Origin: Watersipora subatra
Taxonomy: Eukaryota; Bryozoa; Gymnolaemata; Cheilostomatida; Watersiporidae
DNA length: 64,000 nucleotides
Reading direction: 5' to 3'
NCBI RefSeq assembly: GCF_963576615.1
Contig: NC_088714.1
Span: 42,874,072 to 42,938,071, forward strand
Shown here piece after piece: positions 26,001-64,000 of this stretch. The number at the start of each line of letters is the position of its first letter. Position 1 is the first letter of the stretch. The notes beneath the pieces were generated by a model. It was not told the origin of the DNA. It saw only the letters and a list, made by a program, of their open reading frames with translations, and did no database searches. A program made the translations under genes and the position numbers.

Positions 26001-29000
26001 CGGTAACTAGATTTGAAAGAGAACTCTCATTTTAGTAATTAGCATAGACAACTCCAGAGTAGTTAGCATTTTAGGATACGAGGTAATTATACATAACCAA
26101 AACTCTTTACCTTTACAATTGTGATTAGTTACTTTTTGTCCATTAACAGTCATCTAATCATGTAATGCCTCATAGCCTCAGTGCTACTAATAAAACTTTA
26201 GTCCTTTTAATTATCGCTTAAGCATTACTAGTGCTACAGCTATAACAGTGTTGAAACCAATTTAGAGCTATATCAAACAGAAGTCACCTTGACCTCCGCT
26301 TATTACATGTATATAAATATCAGTGTTTGTGTGTTCAGTTATAGCGATAAAGTTTTAGGTGCGAAAAATCCGCTTCGCAGGATTTGAACTCCGAACCTCT
26401 AGGGAGTTAGCGGGAGTTAACCACTACAGTACGTTGACCTTGCCATACTATGAATTATTTAGGCACACACTTATACAGCGCTTGCGAAAATACTGGCACA
26501 CTTGGGTCTTAGCTTGCATGCCACAATCATTGAATACGAACAAAACTTTGCCTCTTTTTTTATTTACAGCTTTATATTTAACTTAATTAAAACTAATTTT
26601 CTTTATAACTATCTTTATTCAATTTCATTTAAAACATAATCATTTGTATGAATATTACCAATTTTTGATTTAATTGGGATATAGTACATTAACATGCACG
26701 ATTTCCTTTCCTCAAATGAGCATTGAGCCCATTACGTGCGTTCAACACGAAAGCTCATTACAATATTTGTTTTGTGTATTATCGTAGACACTTTTCATCG
26801 AATTCGTGATTTACATTTACTCTTCGCTCGCCTGGACAAAAAAGATCAATTACCCACACGCACTTCAGTGATGTATATAATTCCGATACCTCATTTTAAC
26901 GTTTGTACCGGCATCGCCGTATTTAACATTTTGATGGATAGCTTCTACATCAACAGTAATAATTTTTATACACATATTTCTATGTACTCATTGTTATTAT
27001 TAATTCAATATATTCATTATTTTTATTTTGTTTCTCAGGTTGTATTAATTGCATCAGCATCAAATGCTTTATATTGCAATCATTGTAAATAGAACAGATT
27101 CTATCTAGCAATTACTTGCTAATTATTTCCCATTTATTATATACATTTCACGTTTACTAAATGTCTTATTTTTTCTGTAATTTTTTTAACTGCACAAAAC
27201 ACCTTTCTCATGATATGTTTTAGTGGATTTCTATTTTCATTTAAAAAAAACTTCATGTTCAACAATCAAACTCTTTAAATAATAGAAATTGTATAAAATT
27301 TTGGTAGTTGATATGCTTACTGCTCAGCCCGCCACCCTAAAAATGTGTACTGCACCATTGGTCTACCTTCTGGTGGGGTGGAAATGATGACAGTAGGTGT
27401 CAGCCAACTCAAACACACTGACCAAATATAAAAATAATCAAATATATAAATATATAAAAATACCTTCCTTTAAAAGTTAGAATGATATGTTGAATAAAAA
27501 TGAATTTTCTATGCAAAAACTTTTTTAATTACCCATGCAACACTGGGTATTCAGTAGTAGCTTTATATAATACATTTGTTTTAATTCTACTACATGTAGT
27601 TACCAGAGAAGTTATTAAGGATTTATCAAAGGCTTTGAGATGACAGTGAGATGAATAAGTGCATTTGTATGAAGGATACAAGGCAGTAAACGTATGAATC
27701 ACATCTCTCAAAGAAGTAACTTCTTTTATAGAGTTTAAACTGAGTTCTCGATGAAATGCCAGGCTTCTTGCATAACCGCGAGCATGTTGAAGCCTGAGGT
27801 TCTCTGTACTTACGGTCAGTCTTCTCTGCCACTCTTGAATTTTTCTATACTTAGCATTGTCTGGAAACACTCCATGTATCTCCGTCTGTGGGATAATCTT
27901 AGGGGCCTCAACAGGGCTACTCATGTTAGCCACAGCTGAAAGAGTAAAAGCGATCATACAATTGAAAAGGCTGAATGAAATATAATCACCCATGCGGTCC
28001 AGCACATCTTTCACTCAATACTGAGTCATTGACTAATTACACGATGTCTGATCCAAAAGTTTCTGGAATGGAGTTGTATACACTTGCATATTTGCACGCT
28101 GGAAAACCCCATTACAGTGTTCACCAACAGACATCTCAGGAGTGTTGTAACAAAATTTCAGGTCACTAGGACATCATAGTATGAGCCCATGCGATGATGT
28201 CAAGGTCTATCAAGTGTTTCCAGCAATTTATTTAAAAAAAAAAATTTATTAACATGTTTTATCTATTAGAACAGTGTATTTGCATTAAATTTTGTGTGAA
28301 ATTAACGAAAACGAGTACTCAGACAAGTGAAATGTTAAATATTGCTTTCGGAGATGTAGGTATAAAGACAACACAAGTGTTTGAGTGGCACAAACATTTT
28401 CGTGAAGGTAGAGCCAGAACTGTAGATGATGTGAGGTCTGTCGGACCAGCCTCTGCAGGAACTTGCTCACCAATTGACAGTAGTGCGAGGCAATACCAGT
28501 CATGGCAGATAGTCGTTTAACTATTACAGAAATACCTAGAGACTGGACTTGGCTTTGAGACTGTTCAAATGGTTGTAATTGATGATTTGAACATGAGAAG
28601 AGCCGCAGCAAAGTTCGTGCCATGCTTGCTAACAGATAAACAGAAATACTTCCGGATGCACGCTTGTAACGATTTCAAGGAAGCGTCAAGCAATGACAAA
28701 AACTTTCTTTCATTGATAATAACTGGAGATGAGTCTTGGGTGTTTGGTTATGACCCCAAGACTAAATTCCAAAGTAGCCAGTGAAAGTCTCCAGGCTCCC
28801 AAGACAAAAAAAGATGTCTCTGTCAGGTGTAAAGACCATACTGTTCGCGTTTCTTGATACTTATGGAATAGTACACCATGAATACCTACCACAGGGTACT
28901 ACTGTGAATCGGCATGCTTGGATTGAGATTTTGAGATGCCTTAGAGAAAGAGTTGTGAGATCTGGTGCGGAAGTGCTAAACTGTGGCACACAGGTTCATG

Positions 29001-32000
29001 GGTGCTACACCATGATAACGCACCCGCCTAAACTGCACTTTCTGTGAAGCAGTATTGCACTAAAAACAACATGGCTGTTCTACCACATTGTTCATATTCA
29101 CCAGATCTGGCTCCCTGTGACTTCTGGCTATTTTCTAAGTTAAAACTTACTATGAAAGGAACCAGATTTGACAGTATAGTCGATTCAATGTGCAACAACG
29201 AGAGAGGTAAACAACATCGACGCCGATGGCTTTCATCACTGCATGGCATAAGAGATGAGACAAGTGTATTGGTAGTCAAGGAGAGTACTTCGAAAGAGAC
29301 TAACTAGATACTGAAGCAACGCATTTTGAGTTATAGCTCAATTCCTGGAATGTTTAGACCTGACCTTGTACATCTTTAGTAAATGGTCCTTTATAAATGA
29401 GTTGTTTTCTCCTGACATAAACACAGTTGCGGTTTAAAAACTCTACTTACACATTGATAATACAGTTTAACCTTGGTTTCGACTGACCACAATCCACACC
29501 AGTTCAAAAAGTGAATTATTGCCTGTAAAGATGCATATGATGAGCTAGCTATAAGTAAGCACAATAAGCACTAAGAGGAAGGAAATGTGTTGGTTATTGG
29601 CACCTCTAATACATGTAACTCAAATTCCAAACACAGCTAATGGCCTTACATCAACTTTCATAGACATGATACAAAATCAAACTATAGCTGTATATAGTGT
29701 GCTTATCGAGCCGACTACCAATATCACTTTAGGTAGCTCATGTGATAAGACTTGTATATTATGGTTATACAAAATATTTCTATTATCTGCTCTGCTTACA
29801 ATTCTTCAAGTAATGAATGACACCTTCAACCAACCTCATGGCTTCCATACTTCGGTCATACAGCAACCTTCAAGTGCACTTTTGACCTTGTAAGCAATAA
29901 TTTTAGATTTGTGCATGCTTCAGTTTGTGCTTGTAACAGATGACATTCTTTAAAATATTTTATACCTTGGCTCTTTAGCTACCTGTTTCATTAGTTGAGG
30001 TTGATTAGAAACCCAAACCTTACTTGGTTTGTTACTTAAAGATATCGGGCTAACAGACAGCCTTTCACTGACTGAGCCAATGTGTAGAGAGATGTGGGCT
30101 TCATTATAACATTCATAGTAAAATCTAAACCTAACATAATTTCATAGACAGCCAGCAAATTTTCCATGTTTATTCTATTGCAGATGTTTTACACCCTTGA
30201 TATATATTATATTGCAATTAATATCAAACATTTATAGTGAATGAGCTTAACTTTATGATAGCATGAGTATATGTAGTCCAGAGCAAGTGAAACTACACAT
30301 CATGTACAGTGCGCATACTTCACTGAGGGTCTAACTAGCTTGCCCAAAGTTTCCACATACATAAATTAGCAATGATAATATTCAACCTTGGACATATCAA
30401 GTGCCTAACATCTGCTCCAAAAATCGTTCTTATCACTAGTAGTAAAACACGCAATCATGAAAAAGATAAGATAGACCCAAACCTATTGGTAAACCATCTT
30501 GACAAAAATGTAAACGAACCCAACAATACTTGAATAAGTCATGGAGATTGCTATCATGTCGCTCATAGAAACATGAGGCTTGTGCTAAGTAGGCTATCAA
30601 GCCTACTTAGCACAAATAAAAACATTTTTCCTATTCCCTATTTTACAAACTGTAAGAAATACTTTGTAGGTATAAGTAATGCATACTTCTCACAAATGCT
30701 GGCCGCTCTGAAGGAGTCATCTTGGTGATAGGCATCTCCTCTATTGGCTTGAAAGCCTGTTAAAAATATATAACAAAAAAATGATATAACACATAATAGT
30801 AGTATAGTACTAATTAGTAAGCCATGAGACTCATACTAAGTTTTCATACAGAGATAGTGTAGCAGACACCAGGGCGCTATAGTAAAGTTATGGTTGTTGA
30901 TTAGATTTGAGCATTTTAGCGATCAAAAATTCTGCATATGAAGCAACAGGAAAACCAAACCCTATGCGCTCACAAGTGCGACATCGGTGGTCACTACGGC
31001 TGTTTCCAATGCACATAGTTGGCGCATCGCGCAGGTGTCTCGTTTCCTAACAGGGACACTCAATCATGACATAACTAGAGCAACACGTCTGTTTCCATGA
31101 TGACATCGCAGCGCCATACGGAGATGTGTCAATACTAGTGCTGGGCACGAGTAGTAATACTCGCTGAACTCGCGGGTTTATCTTCTCTCGAGTATCGGGT
31201 AATAGAGATTTCGGGTATTCCGGTCTTTCGGGTTCGGGTTTTGACTTTCGAGTTCGGGTTTTGGTACACGGATCCGTAGGGTAGTGTTAACAAAAATTCG
31301 GTTTATTGCACCCTGCGCTCTTAGTCTGGGGCCACAGGGCATTTCTGTGTCATTTTTGCTAAGGAGGCACGACAATGGGGTTCAACGAATCTTTAATTTA
31401 ATAAATAGAATAAAACATATCATACCTTATTTACCATACCTACTAGAAATATTGTAGTCGAGCAGTGATTACTTGTCATTAAAAGGTGAGAAGAAATACA
31501 TCAAATTTTATTTGTGCAATTAGCCAAATCGGCTTCGTAAACAAATCTATGCCTTTTTTAATACGGTGGGCGCGTGTTCGCTATCACCAACACGCTATCA
31601 CCGATAACACATAGGTCCTTAGTCTGTTTCCGCTATCGCCTTGTTAGAAACTGCCATCAGCGTTGATAGTAGCAGTGAAAATTTAATAACTCTGTTTAAA
31701 TTGATTACCACAGCTAGCTATTATGGATTACATAATTCATTATAACTAAGTTTTACTAAGCCAACAAGCCTTACTAACGGGGAAAAAGCCGATAATGTAA
31801 AGGTTTTTATGAGATTTGGAGCACCATCTACAAAAAGTCAGAGAGGTCCATAGAACATGCTTAAGTATTAAGCTACCATAGACCCTATCTTCTACCACCT
31901 GTTGACACGAAAATGCCCTGTGGCCCAGACTATCTTGACTGTTTAACAATCCGCCTGTTAACGCTGCGAGTATGAATGTCAGCCGATAAAAACTGTGAAA

Positions 32001-35552: not shown

Positions 35553-38500
35553 GTACATTAGGTCGACCTAACAAAATACATTGCCTTTAATGGCTCTTTT
35601 TGGAGTCATTTTTAAATCGGTTTTTGACGCTTATCTTAGTGGTACAGACCGTTTTTTGCAAGACGAGTATTGCAAAAGTTTAATTGCCAAATCGTATCTT
35701 AGAACGTTCTATGATCGTATCTTATGCCAACTGGAAATCACGGTTTGCTTATATTTCTCGCAACGTGTTCGTAAAAATAAAACTGTGCAGGGATCTGCAA
35801 TTGGATTGGCGCAGTTGTTATTTTTATTTAATCTCTGCGTTTACTGAAGTTTCTCATGTGATATGATTTTAATAATTATCACATGGGAAACATTATCACA
35901 TATCATTACTAATACCAATGATATACAGCCCCCCCCAGTGGGGGCTGTATATCATTGGTATTAGTAATGATTGTTGTAAGGCTATAAATGCCACAAAATT
36001 TGACATGGCACACAGATTTTGCTATCTCTGCTCTAGTTCTCAAGTATCCAGACCCATTTAAGAGTTTATTTTGGACACAAGCGCTAGTGGTAGCGGAGTT
36101 AGCGCAGTACTGTCACAAAATGGTAACAATGATGAGGTTGTCATCTTCTAATAAAGGAAAACATTTAGCCATTCAAGGAGAAATTACTGTAAATCAAGAT
36201 AAAAATTACTGGTTGTCATCACGGCAGTCCGAAGTTTTCGTCCATACCTAAATGAAAACAGATTCAAGATTCGCACTTACCATGCATTTTCTGTTATAGT
36301 TTGGGTGAAAAACAAAGCTGACTGGCTAAACAAACTACTGGCTAGAGTTATTATCAGATTTTTTCTTTGTCATAAAACCCAAACCAGGAGCAAAATATAC
36401 TGATGTCACAGTCGCCACCCATGCGATGGGTGTAAACAATGCGTTTGAATACAAGAAATAATCCCTGTCTGACTCTGGAATGGAAATAACTATGCTCCTA
36501 TAACACTAAAGTAAGGTAATCTAGAAACAAAGAAACTAGTGATAGATAAAAAGAGATCAACCATCTCGACTATCTGGAGTTAAACGCTAAACCAAAAGAT
36601 CAGATTTAAGCTGTGACTTAACTAGCTAAAGTACAACAAGAAGACAATGGAGAGGTGGTTTCGGTATATCAGTTAGTCGCTGAACAAAGACAACTGAAAA
36701 GTGATTAGCTGCAAAAAGTTCACAAGAACTGAGACAGCTTGTGAGATGGGACAACCTTATCATTAAACAGAATGACATTCTCTGAACTACAGTACAGAAA
36801 TCTAGAGAGGACTTCTAAGCAGTTATCTGTTCGGGGTTACTATGTGCAGAAGTTATGTGAAAGTGTGACAAGCTAACTCATACTGCGGCAAAAAGAACTA
36901 AACAAAGATTAAAGCAAGATTGGCATTGACTAGACATGGGGGAATTGTTGGAAGAATAAATTTCTGTGTGTATATCTCAAAGTGTTCTTTGTATGGTTTA
37001 TGTAAGATTTGTGAGCTTTCCACTAGCTTTTCTGTTCTGCATTCACCTTATAGCTAATATAGCAGCAACGCGTGTTATGTCGCAAGTCCGTATGAGAAAA
37101 TAGTCGAATTAAGCAAGGTACGCAAAAGAGAGGTAAGTGAGATGCAGAGAATTGTCAATACACTCAAGAACAACAGAAGTGAGATGAGAGTAGAAAAATA
37201 CTGTAAAATTCAGTCACTCCGAAACTCGCGCCTTCTGTGGAAGAGACTGTGTTTTGATAAATGTAGTCTATAAAGAACATGCACATTTATGAGTTGTTGT
37301 TAATAACTGTGTTTACACAGGTTACTCATGTGAGGACATGTTTTAAATTTCTTTTTAGGAATTCCTTTAACAACTTAAAGCTATATGAGAAATGGCGTTA
37401 AACTAATTTTATGGTTTTTTTCATTTAGACACCTATGAATAGGTACTACACTACGGCTTTGTTACAGGGTCATTGTTGAGCTGTTTTTTTACCTCTTATC
37501 AGGCCTGTATTTTATTTGTGCTGAATAAAATCTGGGATCTTCACACCAGTTCTCCTATCTGTTTTGGTAATGACTGGTTTAAAGCCATAGAGACCATGGA
37601 ATTCGACATGACTAACAGATTCCACAGTAGGTAAACACTGTTGAATGTAATAAATTTTTATTTACAGACACTATTTGCTGGGTTGCATTGTTTTATTGCA
37701 AAGAGTGATTTGTTTTAATAAAAATGATGTGACCAATGTCTGATATTGCATTACTAATGTGCTGTTATACAATTACATATGTATATTATTAATACAAAAT
37801 ATCTACCGAAAACCAAGTACTATACTATCAGAATTAAAAACAAAATGGTGATAACACGATAATAAAATTAGACAAGGAGCGGCTGCAAAATGGGTCGCCC
37901 CTGGTTGGATTTTGGTTAGCTAATTTGTGTTTGCTATTGCATGAAAATAGTTGATTTGTTTTCTGCAGCTTTTAAGTGAAGCAATATTCGAGCTCAACCT
38001 GAGCAGTTGATCAAACTGTTTTACATGGTTTAGCTTAATCTGGCTGCTTGTCTTACAACTCCGAACTATAAAATAAGGTTTTCTAATTTGCTTCAGAGCC
38101 TTAGGTCTTTTACTCTTAATTGTTTTCTTGCGTACTACACATTTTGTGCTGGAACTTAACCGTATGTAAGCATCTACTAGATATTACATATTCCAAATCT
38201 CTGTTATATGTATTGGTAGAAATTTTTTCATCAACTTTAATACTTATAGACAAATATTAATCACAAAATTATGAGTTACTTGGTTTTGGTATAACATGCA
38301 GAGGCGTGGTTATTCACAGATATCATTTACTTTTCTCCAATGAAGATTATTTGAGATTTCACTGCAACACTGGTTGAGAGTGTTAGAAACTGTTGGAACA
38401 CAGGCTAGAACATTTACATTACAGGCAACATTTACTGCTCACATTTGCGGAATGAATATCAGTTAAACTAAAATCTGTTTCATTATGCTGTATCAGCATT

Positions 38501-41500
38501 TTAACTACCAGTGACTGCTTCGTGTCTAGTTGACATATTTTCTCCCATATGTTTTGTTAGTGACAATACTACATATAAGATTAGTGGTAACTTAGCTACA
38601 ACAGCATAGCAGTCACAAATGGTGTAATTACTTGGGCAAGTTACCTTTGACTGAGATGGGTAGTCTAAACAAAACTGATGTTTTTGGAGTAAACTGACTG
38701 AGGCTTGGATCTTTACAGAAATGGAAGCAAGCTTTACAACTCTTTATTTGAAGTTAGGAGGTTCTAGTGTCAATAAAGCAAGTACTCTTTGCTATTATAG
38801 CTGGACAAACTGCAGAAAGAATGTGCTGCAACATTGAAGAATCCTTCAATGTCAGACAGAGCGGAGAAGTTAAAGACTCAATACCAAGAGTTGGTGTTAT
38901 TAGAATTATTTCAAGTCTCTTCCAGTCTCCAGTGTTTATTTAGCAGCTGGTCTGCAAATATATGAGGTCTTTACTAATTGTTGAACTGTTGCATGTGCCT
39001 AAATACTCTATTATCTCCTGTGCTCTGTTGCTGTTTAAATTGCTCAATTTTTGTACAGTCAGTGTATAGGGTCTCCATTACTTGTCTGTTGTAGGTGTAT
39101 AGTGTCTCTATTACTTGTCTGCTGTAGGTGTATAGTGTCTCTATTACTTGTTTGCTGTAGGTGTATAGGGTCTGTATTACTTGTCTGTTGTAGGTGTATA
39201 GGGTCTCCATTACTTGTCTGTTGTAGGTGTATAGTGTCTCTATTACTTGTCTGCTGTAGGTGTATAGTGTCTCTATTACTTGTTTGCTGTAGGTGTATAG
39301 GGTCTCCATTACTTGTCTGTTGTAGGTGTATAGGGTCTCTATTACTTGTCTGCTGTAGGTGTATATGGTCTCTATTACTTGTCTGCTGTAGGTGTATAGG
39401 GTCTCTATTACTTGTCTGCTGTAGGTGTATAGGGTCTCTATTACTTGTCTGTTGTAGGTGTATAGGGTCTCTATTACTTGTCTGTTGTAGGTTTATAGCG
39501 TCTCTATTACTTGTCTGCTGTAGGTGTATAGTGTCTCTATTACTTGTCTGTTGCAGGTTTATAAGGTCTCTAGTACTTGTCTGTTGTAGGTGTATAGTGT
39601 CTCTATTACTTGTCTGCTGTAGGTGTATAGGGTCTTTATTCCTTGTCTGCTGTAGGTTTATAGTGTCTCTATTACTTGTCTGTTGTACGTGTATAGGGTC
39701 TCTATTACTTGTCTGTTGTAGGTGTATAAGGTCTCTATTACTTGTCTGCTGTAGGTGTATAGTGTCTCTATTACTTGTCTGTTGTAGGTTTATAAGGTCT
39801 CTAGTACTTGTCTGTTGTAGGTGTATAAGGTCTCTATTACTTGTCTGCTGTAGGTGTATAGGGTCTCTATTCCTTGTCTGTTGTAGGTTTATAAGGTCTC
39901 TAGTACTTGTCTGTTGTAAGTGTATATGGTCTCTATTCCTTGTCTGTTGTAGGTTTATAGGGTTTCCATTACTTGTCTTCTGTAGATTTAAGTCTCTATC
40001 ACTTGTCTGCTGTAGGTGTGTAGATCTGAGAAATGACATGACTGATTTGCAGAAGAGAATCAGTGAACTTACCAAGTCAACTGAGCCGACAAAAATATCT
40101 AATTTTGATGGAAAAAAGGAAGATGAACTGAAGAGATTAAACAATTTTCTGGCAAGTACTGTGATCTGAAGTTCTGAGAGAAATGACTCTTCAATTGCTT
40201 CTTTTATAGTTTTATAGTATGCGAGGAAATTTAGAATTTTTTGGCTCATATGACACAAAAGTGTGCTACAAGACTGGATAGCTTGGGATCACATTACAAA
40301 TATCCAAGTTCACATGGAACAATATTGCGCTACCGGATTATACAAAAATATAAAAAAACATGATTATGTAAACAAACAGATTTCAGGTGTGCACATGACT
40401 AGAATAGGACCACTAAGGCTGAAAAAGCCCTCATTTTCATATTCAGCTTTCACCCTATAAAAATTCAATTAATGTTTTCACATATTCTAAAAGCTTAGTT
40501 TTGAACAAATGGTTGACAACAGTACGTGTAACTTTACTGTTCAGATGGTTGACAACAGTACGTGTAACTTTACTGTTCAGACGGTTGACAACAGTACGTG
40601 TAACTTTACTGTTCAGATGGTTGACAACAGTATGTGTAACTTTACTGTTCAGATGGTTGACAACAGTACGTGTAACTTTACTGTTCAGATGGTTGACAAC
40701 AGTACGTGTAACTTGACTGTTCAGATGGTTGACAACAGTACGTGTAACTTGACTGTTCAGATGGTTGACAACAGTACGTGTAACTTTACTGTTCAGATGG
40801 TTGACAACAGTACGTGTAACTTTACTGTTCAGATGGTTGACAACAGTATGTGTAACTTTACTATTCAGATGGTTGACAACAGTATGTGTAACTTTACTGT
40901 TCAGATGGTTGACAACAGAATGTGTAACTTTACTGTTCAGATGGTTGACAACAGTACGTGTAACTTTACTGTTCAGATAGTTGACAACAGTACGTGTAAC
41001 TTTACTGTTCAGATGGTTGACAACAGTACGTGTAACTTTACTGTTCAGATGGTTGACAACAGTACGTGTAACTTTACTGTTCAGATGGTTGACAACAGTA
41101 CGTGTAATTTTACTGTTCAGATGGTTGACAACAGTACGTGTAACTTTACTATTTAGATGGTTGACAACAGTATGTGTAACTTTATTGTTCAGATGGTTGA
41201 CAACAGAATGTGTAACTTTACTGTTCAGATGGTTGACAACAGTACGTGTAACTTTACTATTCAGATGGTTGACAACAGTACGTGTAACTTTACTATTCAG
41301 ATGGTTGACAACAGTACGTGTAACTTTACTGTTCAGATGGTTGACAACAGTATGTGTAACTTTACTATTCAGATGGTTGACAACAGTATGTGTAACTTTA
41401 CTGTTCAGATGGTTGACAACAGTACGTGTAACTTTACTATTCAGATGGTTGACAACAGTACGTGTAACTTTACTGTTCAGATGGTTGACAACAGTATGTG

Positions 41501-44500
41501 TAACTTTACTATTCAGATGGTTGACAACAGTATGTGTAACTTTACTGTTCAGATGGTTGACAACAGTACGTGTAACTTTACTATTCAGACGGTTGACAAC
41601 AGTACGTGTAACTTTACTATTCAGATGGTTGACAACAGTACGTGTAACTTTACTGTTCAGATGGTTGACAACAGTATGTGTAACTTTACTATTCAGATGG
41701 TTGACAACAGTATGTGTAACTTTACTGTTCAGATGGTTGACAACAGTACGTGTAACTTTACTTTTCAGATGGTTGACAACAGTATGTGTAACTTTACTGT
41801 TCAGATGGTTGACAACAGTATGTGTAACTTTACTATTCAGATGGTTGACAACAGTACGTGTAACTTTACTGTTCAGATGGTTGACAACAGTACGTGTAAC
41901 TTTACTATTCAGATGGTTGACAACAGTACGTGTAACTTTACTTTTCAGATGGTTGACAACAGTATGTGTAACTTTACTATTCAGATGGTTGACAACAGTA
42001 TGTGTAACTTTACTGTTCAGATGGTTGACAACAGTACGTGTAACTTTACTTTTCAGATGGTTGACAACAGTATGTGTAACTTTACTGTTCAGATGGTTGA
42101 CAACAGTACGTGTAACTTTACTTTTCAGATGGTTGACAACAGTATGTGTAACTTTACTGTTCAGATGGTTGACAACAGTACGTGTAACTTTACTGTTCAG
42201 ACTACTTGAAGTATACTTTGCATTAATAAAAGCTTTCTTAGGTGTTCAGCGAATGTTCAAATCTTTGGTAATCATCAATTTATATTTGTTGACTGTTTTG
42301 GAGTTAAGCGAGTCACTGCTGTGAGTAAGTGACTACTGTTGTTAGTGTCCTTGCTGATACATCTCAAGGATTTGAGTGAACTGTTATGAAATGTTCTATT
42401 ATTTATATTTGGATTTAATTTTGCTCATGATTTTAAATTTTTATTTGTAATAATCAGTTGCAGATTAATACTTCAGTATTTGGTAATGTCTAGCATACCT
42501 AGCAGGTGTTTGCTTATTTTCCATTAGTTTCTGTCATAAGTTCTTGGTTTGCTAAATCATCCAATTTTTGAGAGAGCCACTGTCATTGGCAGCGACTGCA
42601 TATCAATGCAAGGCGGAGCCAGTACAAGAGATTAGCAGGTCTTTTCTAGGCTCATTTTGATGGTATCTCATCTGTGCTTAAAAAGCCTTGGTACCACCAT
42701 AAATAGAAACCCTCCAGCTAGTTCTATCAGTGACACCATTTGTCCATGTCTCCTATCTTATAAAACAGAGAATGAGATATCGCTTGATGGTGTCCTTGTC
42801 TTGTTTTCTTTGAAGACCCTGATTACGTTTTGCACTTGTTAAATTTGAGTGAAAGACTTGGCTGGTAAGTCTGACATTATTCATACATATTAATATGGCA
42901 GCCCACTGTAGCTGATTCTTGACAATCATTGTCTCAATACTCAAGTGACTTCAGGTTACCCCTGTAAGTGACTTCAGGTTACCACTGTAAGTGACTTCAG
43001 GTTACCGTTGTAAGTGACTTCAGGTTATCCCTGTAAGTAACCCATGTTTCTGTTTCATGCCGACATGTAGATAGACATTTGCTTTCTAAGCCTTGAGTTT
43101 CGCAGAAGGTAAAATAGGTGTCTCTGCTTTCAAAGAAACGAGACTTAAGATTGCCAATTGCTTCATTTCTGGTTTGAAGACATCTCACAATCTCGACGTC
43201 TATGTTAGCTTTCCGAAAGAGGCAACTGTCAGGTTAATTGAATGACTACTAAACTTAACTCCTGTTTTTCCACTGTAATGTGAGGTGCAACAAATCACTT
43301 TTAAATCTCAATTTAACTTGCCAACACATTACAACACTCGTCATTCCTTATTTTCATTACCTCTTTCACCCTCCTCTTCTACTGGTGGCCATAGACAGGC
43401 TGCCTATTGGGTGTCATCAGCATGGAATTCCTTGCTAATTTGGATAAGGAAAATTGACAGTCATGATGGTTTTAGGGCTGCTTTGAAGCAGTACTTACTG
43501 GACTCTTTGGAATAGATTTGTTCTGATTTCTTATGCTTAGACTATCCATGTTTTCTTCATTAACAATCCCATCTGTTAACTCAGGCTTTGCACCTTGAAT
43601 AGCCATGCTACTGCCCTCACATGGGCCCTCATTGCACCTTACATTTTCTATCATCTTGTTATGTTGGGATTTAATGTAAATAAAACAAACAAGCTCTGAT
43701 TGTTACTTGGTGGTGGTTGGTGAAGTACTTGAGTTTCCTTTGTATTCCCTTTGGGGCTGAGAGCATTATGTGCATGATGGAAAGCCTCAGGGTATTTCTG
43801 AAGGTCTTTCACAGTATGCGCCACTATAGCATTATCATGCGAGTATTGTAGTTCATAGAAAGTGGTAACTTTAGTTTTTGTTTTGGCCTTCTGATGAGGG
43901 ATGCTGAAGCTATCATTAATTTTGTACCAGATTTAGATACCTGTGGTTAAATGTAGTTTAACTAACTTTAAGAGTTCCAGCAAGTACACAGAGAAAACTG
44001 TTAAGCGCACAACTTTGTTGTACAGTAGTTTAAGCATTCGATTTCCCAGTGTTATATCCCTCAACAAGTACAGAAGCCTGCAGCGTCACACAGTCGTGAT
44101 GCAGCAGTTGACTGATTCTTGTGAGTCTATCAGGGCATCCAGTATCATATAAAACTTTTCAGTGTCCTACCTTTTAATGTATTAAACACTTTGGTGAGAT
44201 CGATACAAGCCACATAGATTTCCCTGTGCTATTTTTTGCTCTTTTCCTTTATTTGCCTGGCAGCATAGATCCTGTCCACAGCGCCTCGGTTAGACTCAGT
44301 ACCACATGGACATTTGGGTAGACAATCTTCCGCATTATATCCTAGATGCCTGCATAGAATCCGCGCTAGAGTCTTAACGCTAAAGACAGCAAAAATATTA
44401 GCATTTATTCAGTACCATTCTTTTATCATTTTATTGACATAACATTATTGCATGAAAGTCAGCAAATGTCATTTTATGGTAGATTCTGATAGGAAGATTA

Positions 44501-50500: not shown

Positions 50501-53500
50501 ATCACAAAAATTTGATATGGCTATAATTTCATCAACATAAGTAGTTATTTGTTTTTTAACTCGGACGCATTTAATGAACTCGCACAAAAATCTTCATTTT
50601 TAAGTTGGAAATTCTCAAACGAAGATTTAAAGTTAAATTTTAGGCTAATTTTATAGAGAAATCTTTGGACAACACTGTCACTACTATAAAAGTCTTAAAG
50701 ATCATTGGTTATGTTATCAACGAATAATAAAATTCAGTTGCTAGCAATTGCTGGGAAAGTCGCAAATATTGCGTCTACGGCGGTCGACCATAGAAAACGC
50801 ATAAATGAGTCTACTTCGGTGAAAGGGTTAAAAACGTTGGATTTGCCACTGTTTGTGATAGTAAACATGTTCATTTCCTTCCGCAGCTGAGTTACTTTTA
50901 CTTATTTTCCAGCTACGAGTACTACAGCTACTACAGAACTTGCACGGGTACTGCTACTGCGTTTTACCTACTAAATTTCTACATTGAAAAGGTTAGTAGG
51001 CCTACGTCTTATTCAATGTTGTATTGCCTACGAATTGCCACAGTTCCACTACATAACCTTTTCACTTGCATCCACGTACAAATTTAGTTATCGGCCTACT
51101 GCCAGCCATTTTGCCGATATTGCTTCATGATATTTTTTCAATTTGAAACTCCATCTAGAACGTTTGTTTTGGTTATATAGTAGATTTTGCCAACATGTTA
51201 ACAAGCACTGCTATGCAAAAAATTCATTGTATCTATACTTTGTGCATTTTAATTATCTGTGTAATCACAAAAATCTGAAATGGCTATAGTGTCATCAACA
51301 TAAGTAGTTATTTGTTTTTTAACTCGGACGCATTTAATGAACTCGCACAAAAAATCTTCGTTTTCAAGTTGGAAATTCTCAAACGAAGATTTAAAATCAA
51401 ATTTTAGGCTAATTTTATAGAGAAATCTTTGGAACACACTGTCATTACTATAAAAGTCTTAAAGATCGTTGGTTATGTTATCAACGAATAATAAAATTCA
51501 GTTGCTAGCAATTGCTGGGAAAGTGGCAAAAATGTGTTTACGGCGGTCGACCATGGAAAGCGCATGAATGAGTCTACTTCAGTGAAAGGGTTGAAAACGT
51601 TGGATTTGCCACTGTTTGTGATAGTAAACATGTTCATTTCCTTCCGCAGCTGAGTTACTTTTACTTTTTTTCCAGCTACAAGTACTACAGATCTACAGCT
51701 ACTACAGAACTTGCACGGGCACTCCGAGCGTTGCAATAGGCGACGGTGAGAAGAAAGCGAGCAGGTATATTACAAAAAAAGCACACAATCTCATTCAATT
51801 TTAAAAATGCTTGAAGCAGTGCAATGCCTTCTAAAAAGCCTACTGCTCAAACGCAAGAACAAATTGATTCCCGTAGAGAAAGGGACCAAATTCTCAAAGC
51901 AGCAGCTAGACGAGCAGAAACTGCAGAGCAAACCCAGCTACGCCCACAACGAAACGGAACTGCTACTGCATCTGCTAGAAGTGCAGAAACTGCAGAGCAA
52001 ACACAGCTACGCCTACAACGAAACAGAATAGCAGCTGCTAAAAGAGCAGAAACTGCTGAACAAACACAGGTACATCGAGAGCAGGCCAGAATAGATGCTG
52101 CAGCCGCTAGAAGTGCAGAGACTACTGAACCAACCCAGCAGCGACTCAAACGGCTCAGAGCAGCCGCTACATCGGCCAGACATGCAGAAACCTCCAAGCA
52201 GATGCAGCGGCGACAAGAACATGATGCACTAGCTACAACAGCTGCTCGGTGAGCTGAATTTCCTGAGCAGATGAAACGGCGACAACAGCGTGATGCACTA
52301 ACTACAGCAGCTGCTACCAGGCGCCGTGTATGGCCAGAAAACTTTGCACTTGACTACAGTCCTGCAACATAGTATAGGGCCGAATTTTTCTATGGGACGA
52401 ATGTCCAAAAATGCTCCAGATGTAATGCCTTACGTTGAAAAGGCGAGAGGCCATATATGTAGTTTATATAGTAGATTTTATTGATAATAAATTTTATCAA
52501 CACGGCCACATTACTGCTGCACAGTTTGTATATACCATGTCAAAACACAGGCTATAGACGAAGAACTGGTGAGTCATGATTAGTGTTTCAAGCATGTAGA
52601 AATCTCAATTCAATAAATGCTGCTGATAGCTAAGCAGTGCAATAGGAAAATATTTTCTAGAATTTCTTAAAATATGTAAAACTTTTCAATACTGCCAGTT
52701 TGAAGAACATCAGTTTGCCTAGCAATGTCAATTTCATTATCAGTTCTGTGTACAAAATTAGGACAAGTCCGATTTGAGTAGTCCGAGACTGATGCATTGT
52801 AAACTAGCTGTAAAACACATCGCATATTTCTATTGGTCTCCAACATTATTGACATATACAACTGCATATGTGTATGCAGTCAGATCAGCACAAAAATTTC
52901 AGTAGATTGCATATTTGGAGTTGTTTTACAGTATGAAAGACAACTCTCAATAAAACTATTGCTTTGTGTAAATCTGTTCCCGAACACGGGTAATGCAGCT
53001 AGTATAATATAATTCATAATTTGAGATTGTCCACCATGTAAATATTTTGGGTCATCCGACAGCATATGCTATGCTCATTATTCACCTTTTATATTCAGAG
53101 CCATACATGAGGCTGAGTTGAAATAAGCAACCTATCTGAGAGTCAACAAAGCTTTCCACCGATCCTATGAATATAAATTTATCAAGCTAATCAATATAGT
53201 ACTCGATTGAAGCAATGCAGATCTCAGGAGTATTTCTATCAAACAGATGCAAGACAAATTGAGGTTGGCACCTTGAGATAGGAGTGTCTTAGCTTTGTCA
53301 ATAAGCTCCTTGGTTCCATCCGTAAAAGTTGCTAGACTCTCACACACTTCCTTCCTGTTCAGTTTGCTTGAAGATGTAGAGTGGAAGCCTTCCATCATAC
53401 ACTTGCAGCTTTACTGATTTTCCAGCATTGCTTATAAGCTGATGTATCAACCAATGGTGTGAAATGAGAAGTTTTGCTCCTGCTACAAAGAATGTGAATG

Positions 53501-56500
53501 AGGAGACAAAACATCAAAAACAATCGCAAAAGATAGAAACATACTGATATTTTGTAATAAAATCTATTAAAATTGGGATAAAAATTTCATCTTTAATTAT
53601 AGTAATAGATTCCAGTTTTTGAAACAATCAATTTGCTAATAAATATTTTGTCAGCGAATTCCTCAGGTTGTAGAGAATAGAAATCATTCTGAAACACCAA
53701 TAAATAAAGAACTACATACAGTTGGTCATTGTTTTAATTGCAATATATAGCAATTATATGTATTACATTTGCAAAACTTATCGTCAATGAAACAAAATTG
53801 TTGAAATAGCTGTTGTAGTCTATGAATAACTATCCAATACTGTACTCTGTAGCTTTTTGCAAGTCTGAACAAGATAACATTTACTAACAGTTACTAGGTA
53901 TTTTCACATTGAAGATTGCCAGGCGCACAATTATTCCACAGTGGTATCAGTTGGACGCGTAGTCTAATGGATAACATGCCTCTCATCAGAACTGGAAGTT
54001 TAGAGTTCAAATCTAGTTCCAAGCGAAGTATTCCTTTGTAAAACTTTATCGCTATAACTGGACACTAATGACAGAATGACAAACATTGCGATATAGATTA
54101 CATTATTATATTTATTACTAACTACTATTACGCGACTAGAATAACTGTTAAAAGCTCCTGGTTAACAATGGTAAAATTGCAGCATCTATATAAATCTCAA
54201 AGTTTGTGTGTGATTCTGTGTGTCTAGTTATATAACTATATAACTATAGCTAATAGCTAGACACACAGATTTTAGTAGCTATTACAATCTTGGAATAAAG
54301 AATCCGTATCGCATAAGATTTGATCTCGGAACCTTTTTTAGATAATAGGCTAAACCATTAAGCTACACAAGATTGATGGATTCATTGGGCGATGTGAGTC
54401 GATACCTGGGTGAAAATATGCTTAGTGATATGCGTTACGCACCGTGATTAAAACGTGCTCTCACGGTTCTTATTAGTAAGTTTAGCAATACGGATACTAG
54501 CTTATTCAAATTAGCCATTGGCAATGTGCCAGGCTAATGGCAAGTGGCAGGTAACTACATTACCTGTCATTGTTCATAAGCTGATTTTTAATAGTTGTAT
54601 GATAATTCATGCAGGACATAAGAATATACTTTGTAATATCTTACTTTGGATTTGTGTTCTTTCAATATTAAGATTGGATTTTTAGTCATGTGAGAGTGTT
54701 CATACTGCTATATTGTCTAAATTTGGTATTGCCCTGATTGTATGCTCTGACTATGTGCTCCGACTGTATGCTCCACCTACAGGCTCCTATTAAATGCTCC
54801 GATTATAAGCTCGACTACATGCTCCGACTACAAACTCTTCACTAGATTATCCGACTATATGCTCTTACTACAGGCTCCGACTATATGTCCTGACTATATA
54901 CTCTGACATTATGCTCTGGCTATAAATTCCGACCATACGCTCTAACCATATGCTCAAACTATATACTCTTACTACAGACTTCGACTATATGTCCTGACTT
55001 TACTCTCTGGTTATATGCTCCGATTATATACTCCTACTATATACTCTAATTATATGCTCTGACTACATACTCCGATTATATACTCCGACTATATACTCCA
55101 ACTATATACTCCGACAATATACTCCGACTATATACTCCGATTATATACTCCGACTATATACTCCGACTATATACTCCGACTACATACTCCGACTATATAC
55201 TCCGACTGTATACTCCGACTGTATACTCCGACTATATACTCCGACTATATACTCCGACTATATACTCCGACTATATACTCCAATTATATACTCCGACTAT
55301 ATACTCCGATTATATACTCCGATTATATACTCCGACTATATACTCCGATTATATATTCCGACTATATACTCCGACTATATACTCCGACTATATACTCCGA
55401 CTATATACTCCGACTATATACTCCGACTATATACTCCGACTATATACTCCGACTATATACTCTGACTATATACTCCGACTATAGGTTCTGACTAACATTT
55501 TAGTTTAAGTATCAATCCATTTATTCTTTGCTTTTTGGGATACTTACCGATACAGTAAGGTTTAAAATTCACAAACAATGTTGCTATTATTTTATTATAA
55601 TTTATAGCATGTTTATTGTATACGATCTATTTTAAAGAGCAAGGAAAACTTGTGTTTGAATGTAACATATAATCTGCGCTGAAAAACAATCGTGTTAAAA
55701 ATAAATCGCCCAAAAATCATAAAAGGCTATTAACCAAACAATGACGTACTCTCTGTTGCTACAACAATAATGGTGCACATATCAACTGGCAGAGTAGTCA
55801 ATATTGCAAATATTTGTCACAATACAAATCTAAAGGTATGGCTTAGTTTGAAATTGATCAAATGCAACCAATAGAGAATACTTTGGGAGTTTTTCATTTT
55901 TATTTGAACTTCATTCAAATGAAATACCATAACAACTGCATTATTTGAATAATCATGGGAAATTTTAACAAGCTCGCGAGACATGACCCATTTCTCTGTA
56001 AATAAGCTAGCAGTGAACGGACAAACATTCTATATGTAGTTTATGATCTTCAGCAATCGTTCTGTGAGGCTAAGGCTATAGGCATTTCCTTATACCAAGG
56101 TCAGCCACATGTCACGCCAGTTGATAACATTGATATATTAAAAGCGTATAGACACACATAAGCGGAGCTCTTATTTTTCTGTAGGTATGTTTTTACATAG
56201 AGGTATGCATCTTTCGATGGTTTAGTCTTCACAAGTAGATGTACATTGTATACGGGTTAAGTGCGCGTATGTTCTATTGCAGACTCGGATAAACTATGAG
56301 GTCCTTCATGACTTTGAAAAGCAGGAGAAGGGAGACTTGAGTGTAAAGAAGGGAGAAATTGTGACTCTGTGTTCTGTAAGGTAAGATAGTGGGTGTAAGT
56401 AAATCCACCTAGGCACTTGTAATTGACTTTGCATTCACCATGGAGTTGCCTTCTTTTATTTTGGTATATGTTTGGTACATAAAGTAATTTACTTATGATT

Positions 56501-59500
56501 TAGTGAGGTGTTTCGCCATGCATTAATCCCTCCTACTACACTGTTTTAACTACGGCAGCATTGCTGTATCACTATGGCTGCATTGCTGTATCACTATGGC
56601 AGCATTGATGTATCGCTATGGCAGCATTGCTGTATCGCTATGGCAGCATTGCTGTATCGCTATGGCAGCATTGCTGTATCGCTATGGCAGCATTGCTGTG
56701 TCGCTATGGCAGCATAGCTGTATCGCTATGGCAGCATAGCTGTATAGCTATGGCAGCATAACAGTATCGCTATGGCAGCATAGCTGTATCGCTATGGCAA
56801 CATAGCTGTATCGCTATGGCAGCATAGCTGTATCACTATGGCAGCATAGCTGTATCACTATGGCAGCATTGCTGTATCACTATGGCAGCATTGCTGTATC
56901 ACTATGGCAGCATAGCTGTATCACTATGGCAGCAGTGCTGCATCACTATGGCAGCATTGCTGCATCACAAGTTTTTGGTGGCCTTTGTTTGCATGTGTAT
57001 AGTAATTAACTGCCAGTCTTGTCACTGAGACATGAAAGGGAGCGGACAGTCTATCCACTATGAACGTTCTTTAGTAGCAAGCTGGTTGATGTCAGCAATC
57101 TTTACTATAATAACAGTTGTGTCTGTTCGTCCGATGCCATGGTTGCATGTTGGGAAAAATTATGCATCCAACAAGATTCAAACTTGAACATTTAGTTTAA
57201 CCTGCAGACACGCGACCATCTACACAAGTCGACCACTGTGTTCTATTTTGGAATAATTGTGAACATAGTTATTACACCTGATGATCTCTCGCAACACACT
57301 AGACTACCTGGGTACTAGTATTAATAATAACAACCATCTTGTTACATAGTGGAATAATTATGCTCATAGTTATTACACCTGATGATCTCTCACAGTACAC
57401 TAGACTACCCGGATACTAGTATTAATAATAAAAACCATATTGTTACATTGTGGAATAATTATGCTCATAGTTATTACACCTGATGATCTCTCACAGCACA
57501 AGAGACTACCCGGATACTAGTATTAATAATAAAAACCATATTGTTACATTGTGGAATAATTGTGCACATAGTTATTACACCTGATGATGTCTCACAGCAC
57601 ACTAGACTACCAGGGTACTAGTATTAATAATAACAACCATCTTGTTACATTGTGGAATAATTGTGCACATAGTTATTACACCTGATGATCTCTCACATTA
57701 CACTAGACTACCAGAGTACTAGTATTAATAATAACAACCATCTTGTTACAATGTGGAATAATTGTGCACATAGTTATTACACCTGTTGATCTCTCATGGT
57801 ACACTAGACTACCAGAGTACTAGTATTAATAATAACAACCATCTTGTTACAATGTGGAATAATTGTGCACATAGTTATTACACCTGTTGATCTCTCATGG
57901 TACACTAGACTACCAGAGTACTAGTATTAATAATAACAACCATCTTGTTACATAGTGGAATAGTTGTGCACATAGTTATTACACACAATGATCTCTCACA
58001 TTACACTAGACTACCAGGGTACTAGTAATAGCAAGGTATTTACCAAGAGTACCTCGAGACTAATTTTAACTATTTGAATGGAATTTGACCAACCCTCCTC
58101 CTTCATCTACAAAAAATAGTCGATGAACACTTTCCATCGATATGCTATCCTGGCACTGATTGGTTCAAGAGTATTTAGCACTAATTTTACCTCATTGATT
58201 TTTATCCAAGTTATTCTTTTCTGTCCAGTTTTTGTTAGTTCCTCATAGTTCGAGTATTATATGTGTAATGTATTATACAAATATATAGCATGTACAATGA
58301 CATATATACGCTTACTTACATGTATAACAATTGTGAAAGTTTAGAAAGCAGTGTAAGTGTTCTTAAGTGTTTACATTATTGTTCATATTTAAAAGAATCT
58401 CATTTCTTTTTCTCAGTAATTCCCATTTTGCTAGTCGGTTTATAAGGTAAAGCCCCTCCCTGAAGTAGAAAAGCTTACTATATTCTCAAATTATATCAAT
58501 GCTTAAAAACCATTCTATATAAAGAATGGCAGTTATTGTACTTGAGCTGAGTAATTGGTGCTTGCTGAAATATGATGAGGTTACAATAGACATCTTGCTT
58601 CAACAGTGATGTGGATAGCTCGCAGATCTCTCCTGGCAGCCCTTGCCAAGATCATTATAAAAACAATCTGTATCAATTTGCCATTTGTCTGCATTGAATG
58701 GGACTACTTAGGTCAAAAGTGCAATGCTGATACAGTTGCTAAACCTCAGGGCCATGTAATCGTGAGTTCTATCCCTAGTTATGACATATTTAGCAAAAAT
58801 CAACTTTCAGCCCTCTTGCGCATTTGGCCTATTTGGTGGTCTATAGTATGAGTCTTCATTTAGCAATGTAAAAGGCTCATAGAGGCTGTTGTACTTATTT
58901 AGGGAAGATGGGTGGTGGCAATGTGAGAATGCTCAGGGTGACACAGGCTTTCTCCCAAAAACCTTCCTCAAGCAGCACATTATGTATTCTGACCTTATGC
59001 AAGAGGATGACAGTCCCACGAGTCCGAGAACTGGCAAAGCGTTATGGGGCAGTGTCAAAAAGGCTTTGACCGAGGTATGTGGCGCTATAAACACAAGAAT
59101 GGCTATTCCTTGATGTAGTCCTGCTAATTGTTGAAGTTTGAATATATTTCCTGTTTTCAGATAATTTAGTTTGACTCACACAATCAGTGTTTACTTTACA
59201 CATATTCAAGATTAACATCCTGTAAACACCTCATTCTTTCACTCTTATATCTCTCACTCTTATATCTCTCACTCTTATATCTTTCACTCTTATATCTCTC
59301 ATTTTTATATTTCTCACTCTTATATCTCTCACTCTTATATCTCTCACTCTTATATCTCTCATTCTTATATCTCTCACTCTTATATCTCTCGCTCTTATAT
59401 CTCTCACTCTTATATCTCTCACTCTTATATCTCTCACTCTTATATCTCTCATTCTTATATTTCTCACTCTTATATCTCTCGCTCTTATATCTCTCACTCT

Positions 59501-62500
59501 TATATCTCTCGCTCTTATATCTCTCGCTCTTATATCTCTCACTCTTATATCTCTCACTCTTATATCTCTCACTCTTATATCTCTCACTCTTATATCTCTC
59601 ATTCTTATATCTCTCACTCTTATATCTCTCGCTCTTATATCTCTCGCTCTTATATCTCTCGCTCTTATATCTCTCGCTCTTATATCTCTCGCTCTTATAT
59701 CTCTCACTCTTATATCTCTCACTCTTATATCTCTCAATCTCATATCTCTCACTCTTATATCTTTCATATCTCTCACTCTTTTATCTTTCATATCTCTCAC
59801 TCTTATATCTCTCACTCTTATATCTCTCACTTTTATATCTCTCACTCTTATATCTCTCAGTCTTATACCTCTCACTCTTATATCTCTCACTCTTATATTT
59901 CTCACTCTTGTATCTCTCACTCTTATATCTCTCACTCTTATATCTCTCACTCTTATATCTCTCATTCTTATATCTCTCACTCTTATATCTCTCGCTCTTA
60001 TATCTCTCGCTCTTATATCTCTCGCTCTTATATCTCTCGCTCTTATATCTCTCGCTCTTATATCTCTCGCTCTTATATCTCTCGCTCTTATATCTCTCGC
60101 TCTTATATCTCTCGCTCTTATATCTCTCGCTCTTATATCTCTCGCTCTTATATCTCTCGCTCTTATATCTCTCGCTCTTATATCTCTCGCTCTTATATCT
60201 CTCGCTCTTATATCTCTCACTCTTATATCTCTCACTCTTATATCTCTCAATCTCATATCTCTCACTCTTATATCTTTCATATCTCTCACTCTTTTATCTT
60301 TCATATCTCTCACTCTTATATCTCTCACTCTTATATCTCTCACTTTTATATCTCTCACTCTTATATCTCTCAGTCTTATACCTCTCACTCTTATATCTCT
60401 CACTCTTATATCTCTCAGTCTTATACCTCTCACTCTTATATCTCTCACTCTTATATCTCTCACTCTTATATCTCTCACTCTTATATCTTTCATATCTCTC
60501 ATTCTTATATTTCTCACTCTTATATCTCTCACTCTTATATCTCTCAGTCTTATATCTCTCATTCTTATATCTCTCACTCTTATATCTCTCAGTCTTATAT
60601 CTCTCAGTCTTATATCTCTCAGTCTTATATCTCTCACTTTTATATCTCTCAGTCTTATATCTCTCACTCTTATATCTCTCACTCTTATATCTCTCACTCT
60701 TATATCTCTCACTCTTATATCTCTCAGTCTTATATCTCTCACTCTTATATTTCTCAGTCTTATATCTCTCACTCTTATATATCTCAGTCTTATATCTCTC
60801 ACTCTTGTATCTCTCACTCTTATATCTCTCACTCTTGTATCTCTCACTCTTATATCTCTCACTCTTATATCTCTCACTCTTATATCTCTCAGTCTTATAT
60901 CTCTCATTCTTATATCTCTCATTCTTATATCTCTCACTCTTATATTTCTCAGTCTTATATCTCTCACTCTTATATTTCTCAGTCTTATATCTCTCACTCT
61001 TATATATCTCAGTCTTATATCTCTCACTCTTGTATCTCTCACTCTTATATCTCTCACTCTTATATCTCTCACTCTTATATCTCTCACTCTTATATCTCTC
61101 ACTCTTATATCTCTCAGTCTTATATCTCTCATTCTTATATCTCTCATTCTTATATCTCTCACTCTTATATCTCTCACTCTTATATCTCTCAGTCTTATAT
61201 CTCTCACTCTTATATCTCTCAGTCTTATATCTCTCACTCTTATATCTCTCACTCTTATATCTCTCACTCTTATATCTCTCACTCTTATATCTCTCACTCT
61301 TATATCTCTCACTCTTATATCTCTCACTCTTATATCTCTCACTCTTATATCTCTCACTCTTATATCTCTCACTCTTATATCTCTCACTCTTATATCTCTC
61401 ATTCTTATATCTCTCACTCTTATATCTCTCACTCTTATATCTCTCAGTCTTATATCTCTCACTCTTATATCTCTCAGTCTTATATCTTTCACTCTTATAT
61501 CTCTCACTCTTATATCTCTCAGTCTTATATCTCTCACTCTTATATCTCTCACTCTTATATCTCTCACTTTTATATTTCTCACTCTTATATCTCCCAGTCT
61601 GATCCTGAAGTTCCTCGTATCTACTGCAGATATCTCTTTGACTCTCTGTAGACTAGTGCCACAGATGTGCTGCATGCGCTAGGAGCTGTACCTGCAGGCT
61701 TTAGAGAGCCTACCTGTGCCAAGCTACTTGCACTGGATGATAAGCACACCCATGTTAACTACAGCAGTGTTAAACTCAGCAACTCCAATGTCTTCTACAA
61801 GGATCTTTTTTACAACCCTATCACACAGCGTGTAAGTTCACTCCTTTTTTCTATTACTTACTTTGGTTTAGTTGTTATAGACTAATTCGCTAGCTTATCT
61901 CTGATACTTACTGCCGGTTGAAAGGCCATCCAGAGCAGCCCATTAAACTAAGTGGTATCATAGCGCAAACAGGAAGAACAACTTCAACATTTCTCTTTCT
62001 TTTGTCTGAGTATTTCTCATATATGCAGGTTTGCAAGGCTGAAACGTGCTCGAACAAAAAAATAAGCTTTGTGAAAGTTTTGCAACAATACTTCAAAATT
62101 TTTCGTAACATTTTAAAAAACTAAATTTCTTAATATGAGTTGGATATTTTTATATTCATTTTTGATTATGTTTGTAACACATAATATTTCTTAACATCAT
62201 CTTGTATTATAGATTATTTGAGTTTATACCGTAAGTTGAACTACTTGATTTATATGAGTTTCATTAAAAATATTTTTCCTGACAATGAGCTGCTCAATCA
62301 TAACAAAGCAGCAGGCATAAATCATGAGCTCCCCGAATGCACGCGATTACGCCTCATTCATTGCTAGTATCAGCCGCAGTGTAAAAGTTCGTGAATTTGT
62401 CAGCTAATTCTTTGATACTACCCTCATTCGTTTCAAGCTTTATTTACCCATCAGTCCTTTGATCAGATGTTTGCAGCGAAAAGTATGCAAGGAGATTAAT

Positions 62501-63904: not shown

Positions 63905-64000
63905 GTAACTATTGACTATTCTAACCAATGGCTGTGTATCGTTGACTATTCTAACCAATGGCTGTATATCATTGACTATTCTAACCAATGGCTGTGTATC
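63905..64000. repeat. 30-bp tandem repeat in NPHP1 intron 10, cut by window end
   Basis: Three copies of GACTATTCTAACCAATGGCT plus GTATATCATT, beginning right after the exon 10 donor and continuing to the window edge. Each unit has TTCTAAC, which fits a branch-point consensus. Confidence 0.9.

Follow-up and report, generated by a model that had tools for sequence, protein, structure and literature searches.

A 33-bp minisatellite with tandem acceptor-like sites adjoins a coiled-coil exon of an NPHP1-like gene and appears to cross its intron/exon boundary

Minisatellite-like tandem repeats that lie across intron/exon boundaries have been described in amphioxus genes as “mirages”, many of them with AG/GT signals (PMC3087553, PMC3902484; here and below, a slash marks the splice junction). 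The genes reported to carry them are Adh3, the globins Gb6 and Gb9, TnC and PGBD5, and both 5′ and 3′ boundaries are affected (PMC3087553, PMC3902484); PGBD5 is the addition of PMC3902484, which states the same for Adh and TnC. As presented in PMC3087553, RT-PCR suggests that regular splicing is undisturbed by the mirages, their inner units are homogenised while edge copies escape, and a model of intron gain is built on them.

An array with several of these properties is found in an NPHP1-like gene within the 64,000-nucleotide stretch of DNA that we analyzed (termed “the window”). Like the mirages described for amphioxus, the NPHP1 array appears to cross an intron/exon boundary and carries AG/GT signals, in this case at 25 of its 28 full-unit ends. 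Its exon-side copy is divergent, but its first unit is near consensus (32 of 33 matches). The unit length of 33 bp is within the range of 10-72 bp given for the Adh3 mirage, whereas the Gb6 globin mirage is described as having 6 and 3 units of 150-160 bp. Unlike the amphioxus arrays, that of NPHP1 comprises about 29 units of 33 bp, of which 25 bp are predicted to be intronic, and nearly all of these units are acceptor-competent by score.

A human minisatellite with multiple splice donor sites is reportedly the subject of a 1995 study, the gene being IFI6 (6-16, G1P3). Multiple splice sites are thus common to both repeats, although those of the human minisatellite are donors and those of the NPHP1 array are acceptors. 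Tandem acceptors of the NAGNAG type, as described in PMC3250501, likewise place competing AGs before one exon and provide in-frame alternatives, but they do so in 3-base steps, compared with steps of 33 bases and 26 decoys, each with its own pyrimidine tract, in the NPHP1 array. The recursive-splicing ratchet points of Drosophila also juxtapose an acceptor and a donor within an intron according to PMC8605326. The NPHP1 copies differ from these in being arranged in close tandem with weak donor halves. In human segmental-duplication genes, minisatellites are reported to alter gene structure, in some cases by activating cryptic splice sites (PMC2812944); the survey described there targeted repeats within exons, whereas the NPHP1 unit is mostly intronic. 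We read the NPHP1 array as an acceptor-dense mirage, and hence as a member of a boundary-spanning kind of minisatellite that is already known. A literature search, in which NPHP1 itself was sparsely queried, found no publication that describes an array of this kind in NPHP1 or one built from this unit.

The gene that carries the array is NPHP1-like. Two open reading frames (56226-56384 and 58883-59113) contain the halves of an SH3 domain as recognized by Pfam, and the joined SH3 exons have nephrocystin-1 (1s1n, E 1.6e-11) as their top PDB match and a neutrophil cytosol factor 1 entry (7yxw, E 3.2e-11) as runner-up among the best 60 of 468 matches with E up to 10. For the spliced upstream exons, the top of five PDB matches is 6o1q, the N-terminal coiled coil of nephrocystin-1 (E 0.0039). 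An earlier sequence-only reading of this DNA had named the gene NPHP1, and these SH3 and coiled-coil matches bear out that assignment as an NPHP1-like gene. Glu-rich open reading frames are situated between the coiled-coil and SH3 exons, an order of domains (coiled coil, Glu-rich stretch, SH3) that we take to agree with that of NPHP1. Exons at 61652 and 63772 presumably resemble the C-terminal nephrocystin region; when these are joined, a PDB search gives two matches only, with E values of 0.35 and 0.97 that we judge to be chance. A Pfam search yields no match for the pieces from exon 2, exon 3, 61652 and 63772, and a FlaF match of the first exon lies below the Pfam cut-off and was likewise judged to be chance. 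The donor of the most upstream exon listed in Table 1 scores 7.58 (top 0.06% of GTs); exons 2 and 3 are numbered as in the sequence-only reading.

Table 1. Putative NPHP1 coding exons and parts of the 33-bp array (positions in the window)
Feature	Position	Strand	Description
Upstream NPHP1 coding exon	37058..37132	+	Open reading frame; ends GAG/GTAAGT; assigned by phase and by alignment within the spliced model; 5′ limit uncertain
NPHP1 exon 2, coiled coil	38801..38889	+	6o1q match; donor end uncertain, 38890 best of 10 by homology
Intron portion outside the TRF array	38890..39061	+	Weakly unit-like, perhaps decayed units
28 full 33-bp units	39062..39985	+	Each with an 8-bp exon-like head and a 25-bp intron-like end; 26 end in AG
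29th unit, divergent, 30 bp	39986..40015	+	Holds the putative authentic acceptor CTGCTGTAG; score 4.56, top 1.05%
GTGTGTAG, putative first 8 bases of exon 3	40016..40023	+	7/8 match to unit head
NPHP1 exon 3, coiled coil, 136 nt	40016..40151	+	6o1q match; GC donor CTG/GCAAGT at 40152

TRF run over positions 36000-43000 calls a single array at 39062-40023, with 29.2 copies of 33 bp, 89% matches and a score of 1490, the copy number being that of one assembly. The sequence-only reading had let the array start at 38896. The array itself stands, but a start at 38896 does not, as this position is 166 bp upstream of the TRF start in DNA that is not called repeated. Local alignment of 38890-39061 with the unit gives a score of 23, compared with a shuffle mean of 16.3, and 3.2% of 500 shuffles reach it. 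The units fall into 18 types and differ from the consensus, GTGTATAGGGTCTCTATTACTTGTCTGTTGTAG, by 54 substitutions. The full units end in TGTAG in 25 cases and in TGCAG, TGTAC and TGTAA in one case each (n = 28), and 21 of the 28 also contain a further AG, in TATAG, that is weaker. Of the two edges of the array, that on the exon side alone is divergent and is its most divergent part, as the 28th unit retains 28 of 33 matches to consensus and the 29th is three bases short. An exact 112-bp block recurs at a lag of 132 bp, equivalent to four units, and suggests that exchange of several units at once took place recently.

The start of exon 3 was assessed with 80 splice models, in which ten donors were combined with eight acceptors (the sites at 40016, 40024 and 40053, and the ends of five units farther upstream, of which that at 39920 is without AG) and each product was aligned to 77 residues of 6o1q. 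The top model pairs donor 38890 with acceptor 40016 and scores 87, compared with a maximum of 55 among 500 shuffles. Next are models scoring 79 (donor 38896 with 40016) and 78 (donor 38932 joined to the last decoy, which precedes 40016 by 30 bp). Because 40016 gives the highest homology score of the 80 models, we favor this position as the start of exon 3. It is also the final site of the series, in line with the suggestion of the sequence-only reading that the authentic acceptor is the last of many tandem sites. The position of the exon 2 donor is uncertain. The best candidate by homology, 38890, is weak (AGA/GTTGGT, -3.46, top 32% of GTs). As a separate observation, the GC donor at which exon 3 apparently ends is the top donor in 40101-40180, with a score of 6.57 from a matrix that ignores the second base.

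An exon beginning at 40016 would open in phase 2, and its first codons, which fall within the array, include one for a Cys that aligns with a Cys of 6o1q. The exon start GTGTGTAG is identical to the unit head GTGTATAG at seven of eight positions. Equally close matches to the consensus head are found at 32 of 63,011 8-mers elsewhere in the window and at 3 of 3,843 8-mers that follow AG; if any unit head is allowed, 198 of 63,011 8-mers match as well. Since the first eight exon bases lie inside the array, the unit appears to consist of 25 bp of intron end and 8 bp of exon start. With exon 3 placed at 40016, the tandem unit thus crosses the intron/exon boundary, and the array overlaps the predicted exon start by 8 nt. 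An array ending exactly at exon 3, as had been proposed, is therefore correct in that it adjoins the exon and incorrect in its end point, which is 8 bp into the exon. Past these bases, exon 3 does not resemble the unit, its alignment score being reached by 91.2% of 500 shuffles, and nor does exon 2 (97.2% of 500 shuffles). The exonic share of the unit is consequently a matter of eight bases, as the remainder of exon 3 is unlike the unit.

Splice sites were scored with an approximate, untrained Shapiro-Senapathy-type matrix. On this matrix, the 26 AG-bearing unit ends score 3.5 to 6.3, with a median in the top 1.5% of 3,903 AGs, and the site favored as authentic falls within this range at 4.56. 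This median, together with the TRF score, confirms that the array is beyond chance. Acceptors of seven other exons score between -1.39 and 3.74, where three of these exons have tested homology (38801, 56283 and 58903), two are presumed (61652 and 63772) and two are guesses (48796 and 49150). The eight comparison donors similarly include alternatives for one junction (63901/63905) and two guesses (48912 and 49275). The “about 29” near-identical acceptors of the sequence-only reading thus hold up as a tandem series of acceptors, though their number is corrected to 26 decoys plus the authentic site.

Nearly every unit combines a branch-point-like ATTAC, a pyrimidine tract and YAG. Under the scanning model (PMC1431707), the branch point of each acceptor should sit in its own unit, because AGs recur in every unit. 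The last unit has no AG from 39993 to the authentic AG, and has ATCAC at 39998.

Other repeats are present in the window, where 13 chosen arrays cover 14.7% of positions 1-64000. The next intron contains a 36-bp minisatellite of 47 copies (40509-42201, 96% matches), whose unit ends in TTTACTGTTCAG and has GT sites. Its acceptor median of 0.89 is below that of the 33-bp array, and it adjoins no recognized exon. A pyrimidine-rich array of 157 copies of 15 bp (59235-61593) stops 58 bp short of 61652, where a putative exon of NPHP1 begins. Presumably, about 50 residues of human NPHP1 should be encoded between the exon ending at 59074 and that at 61652; inspection by eye revealed no exon for them in this interval, which is mostly 15-bp array. 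A 30-bp array (63911-64000) begins 10 bp downstream of AAG/GTTGGT (63901), a putative donor of NPHP1, and reaches the end of the window. We considered this donor-side array as a second mirage and rejected it, as it has no boundary similarity (38.9% of 1,000 shuffles score as high). A degenerate mariner-like remnant lies at 28236-29307, with a match to the Mos1 transposase HTH (PF17906, E 0.00015) that is below the Pfam cut-off and a motif, SPDLAPCDFWLF, that we take to be of mariner type; two further pieces of this remnant give no transposase match. Searches of the window with Rfam at the gathering score and with a tRNA scan found none.

We propose that the array is probably a mirage-type minisatellite, generated by tandem duplication of an NPHP1 intron/exon boundary and expanded to about 29 copies. 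In this scenario, whose direction of duplication we infer, the final 25 bp of the intron and the first 8 bp of the next exon would have been duplicated in tandem, and the resulting array would have expanded and been homogenised by unequal exchange. The exon-adjacent copy, retained through selection and through its place at the edge, would have diverged. We expect the spliceosome to choose mainly this exon-proximal copy (cleaving between 40015 and 40016) by exon definition, because an exon of ordinary size that ends at the downstream donor results only from the proximal copy (136 nt) and from its nearest neighbors; copies farther upstream would be treated as intron. If a decoy were used now and then, this would be tolerated, because every decoy lengthens the exon by a stop-free multiple of 3 nt, and the array may persist neutrally. 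Against this proposal, an array close to an exon is unsurprising in itself, since minisatellites abound in the window (chosen arrays occupy 28.7% of 37-64 kb).

The same reading frame could instead be exploited, with several acceptors used in a regulated or noisy manner to make NPHP1 isoforms that differ by blocks of ~11 residues in the coiled coil. All 26 AG-bearing decoys are in phase with 40016, at offsets that are multiples of 3 and extend from 30 to 921 nt, and the exon 3 frame is stop-free through the whole array, just as the sequence-only reading had it. The 11-codon steps that it anticipated agree with the 33-bp spacing but not with the nearest decoy, which would add 10 codons because the last unit is 30 bp. 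Variable inclusion is compatible with these in-phase decoys that score like the authentic site, and the human minisatellite with multiple donor sites can be cited as a precedent. Nevertheless, we consider it unlikely. The 17 distinct plus-frame unit variants comprise 13 non-synonymous and 4 synonymous changes and no stop, against a possible 69:25:5, which in a comparison of low power gives no sign of frame selection. Routine inclusion in the protein is unsupported because the variants show no coding constraint, and their pattern argues against it while leaving room for rare use. Moreover, the predicted insert peptide is rich in Cys, Val and Leu and would fall inside the region aligned to the coiled coil, and the amphioxus arrays are reported to be accompanied by normal splicing (PMC3087553, PMC3902484). 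The proposal that units are variably included in the coiled coil therefore finds no support.

We also rejected a coding minisatellite on either strand. The consensus unit is stop-free in the plus exon frame and in two minus frames, and the distinct variants give no sign of coding at this low power; non-synonymous, synonymous and stop changes number 13:4:0 in minus frame 0 (possible 76:20:3) and 10:6:1 in minus frame 1 (possible 70:22:7).

The order of events might alternatively have been the reverse, such that a minisatellite of acceptor-like units, already present in the intron, extended to the exon, whose acceptor was then replaced by one of the units; the resulting anatomy would be the same. 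The many arrays of other kinds in this NPHP1-like gene would fit such an origin, as would the loss of exon similarity after 8 bases. We regard it as a serious rival but nonetheless as improbable in light of a comparison among the 13 arrays, which were picked from 37 TRF rows by leaving out short rows, rows that overlapped within a single array and two rows of Glu-rich coding sequence. The median of the best acceptor per unit is 4.31 in the 33-bp array, the highest of the 13 on this strand. One of the other 12 is without AG on this strand, ten range from -12.35 to 1.23, and the 15-bp array attains 3.27 but has AG in only 21 of 157 units; on the opposite strand, a short array of three units (51898-52101) reaches 3.69. 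Because the 33-bp array tops those compared, acceptor-likeness is not a general property of minisatellites in the window. The alignment of the first exon codons, Cys included, with 6o1q from within the array also argues against an array that came first.

Coincidence, in which an ordinary intronic minisatellite happens to border the exon while the true acceptor is at another position, is quite unlikely despite the abundance of minisatellites in the window and the weakness of the donor paired with 40016, given that the best models with 40024 and with 40053, the latter an acceptor outside the array that the sequence-only reading had offered as an alternative, reach 64 and 60 versus 87 for 40016, and that these sites score 0.1 and -1.21 as acceptors versus 4.56.

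A further scheme builds on the AG/GT unit ends. A mistaken splice to a decoy would place a new GT directly after exon 2, such that further splicing to a later unit is possible, and the array could in principle be a self-correcting ladder in which mis-spliced decoys, as tandem zero-length-exon ratchet points, are re-spliced to later units up to the authentic boundary. If true, the ladder would explain how boundary-spanning arrays grow within genes without damage to the mRNA. There are 29 AGGT sites in the window above an equal loose cut-off, 21 of which are inside the array and 8 outside. Even so, we hold the ladder to be very unlikely. The regenerated donors are weak, at -4.7 for AGA/GTGTAT (top 45% of GTs) and -9.26 for AGA/GTTTAT, compared with -3.46 for the putative exon 2 donor, and the unit ends do not provide the good regenerated 5′ splice site that a recursive-splicing ratchet array requires. 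The AG/GT at unit ends also follows simply from the fact that the exon begins with GT.

We did not adopt RNA structure as a means of hiding the decoys. The whole-array fold has a z of -4.1 relative to 20 shuffles in which periodicity was broken by the shuffling, whereas periodic shuffles fold equally well in 22.1% of 1,000 cases for three units and in 10% of 300 for six units. In local folds, the openness of the authentic UAG exceeds that of every one of the 28 unit ends (two of which lack AG) when the window is 150 or 240 nt, and that of 27 of them when it is 100 nt, but with a 70-nt window 11 of the 28 equal it. Measured over 8 nt, 28, 27, 26 and 19 of the 28 unit ends are more open than the authentic site in the four windows.

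With the array interpreted as a mirage-type minisatellite, NPHP1 joins the genes that have a boundary-spanning minisatellite. Mirages are described for amphioxus genes in two reports (PMC3087553, PMC3902484), and the kind would be broader than those reports state if the host of this gene is not a lancelet. Because the decoys are similarly strong, site sequence alone cannot name the winning cue, whether exon definition, transcription order or distance. The 26 in-frame decoys of similar strength that precede one exon thus constitute a natural experiment on the choice of 3′ splice sites.
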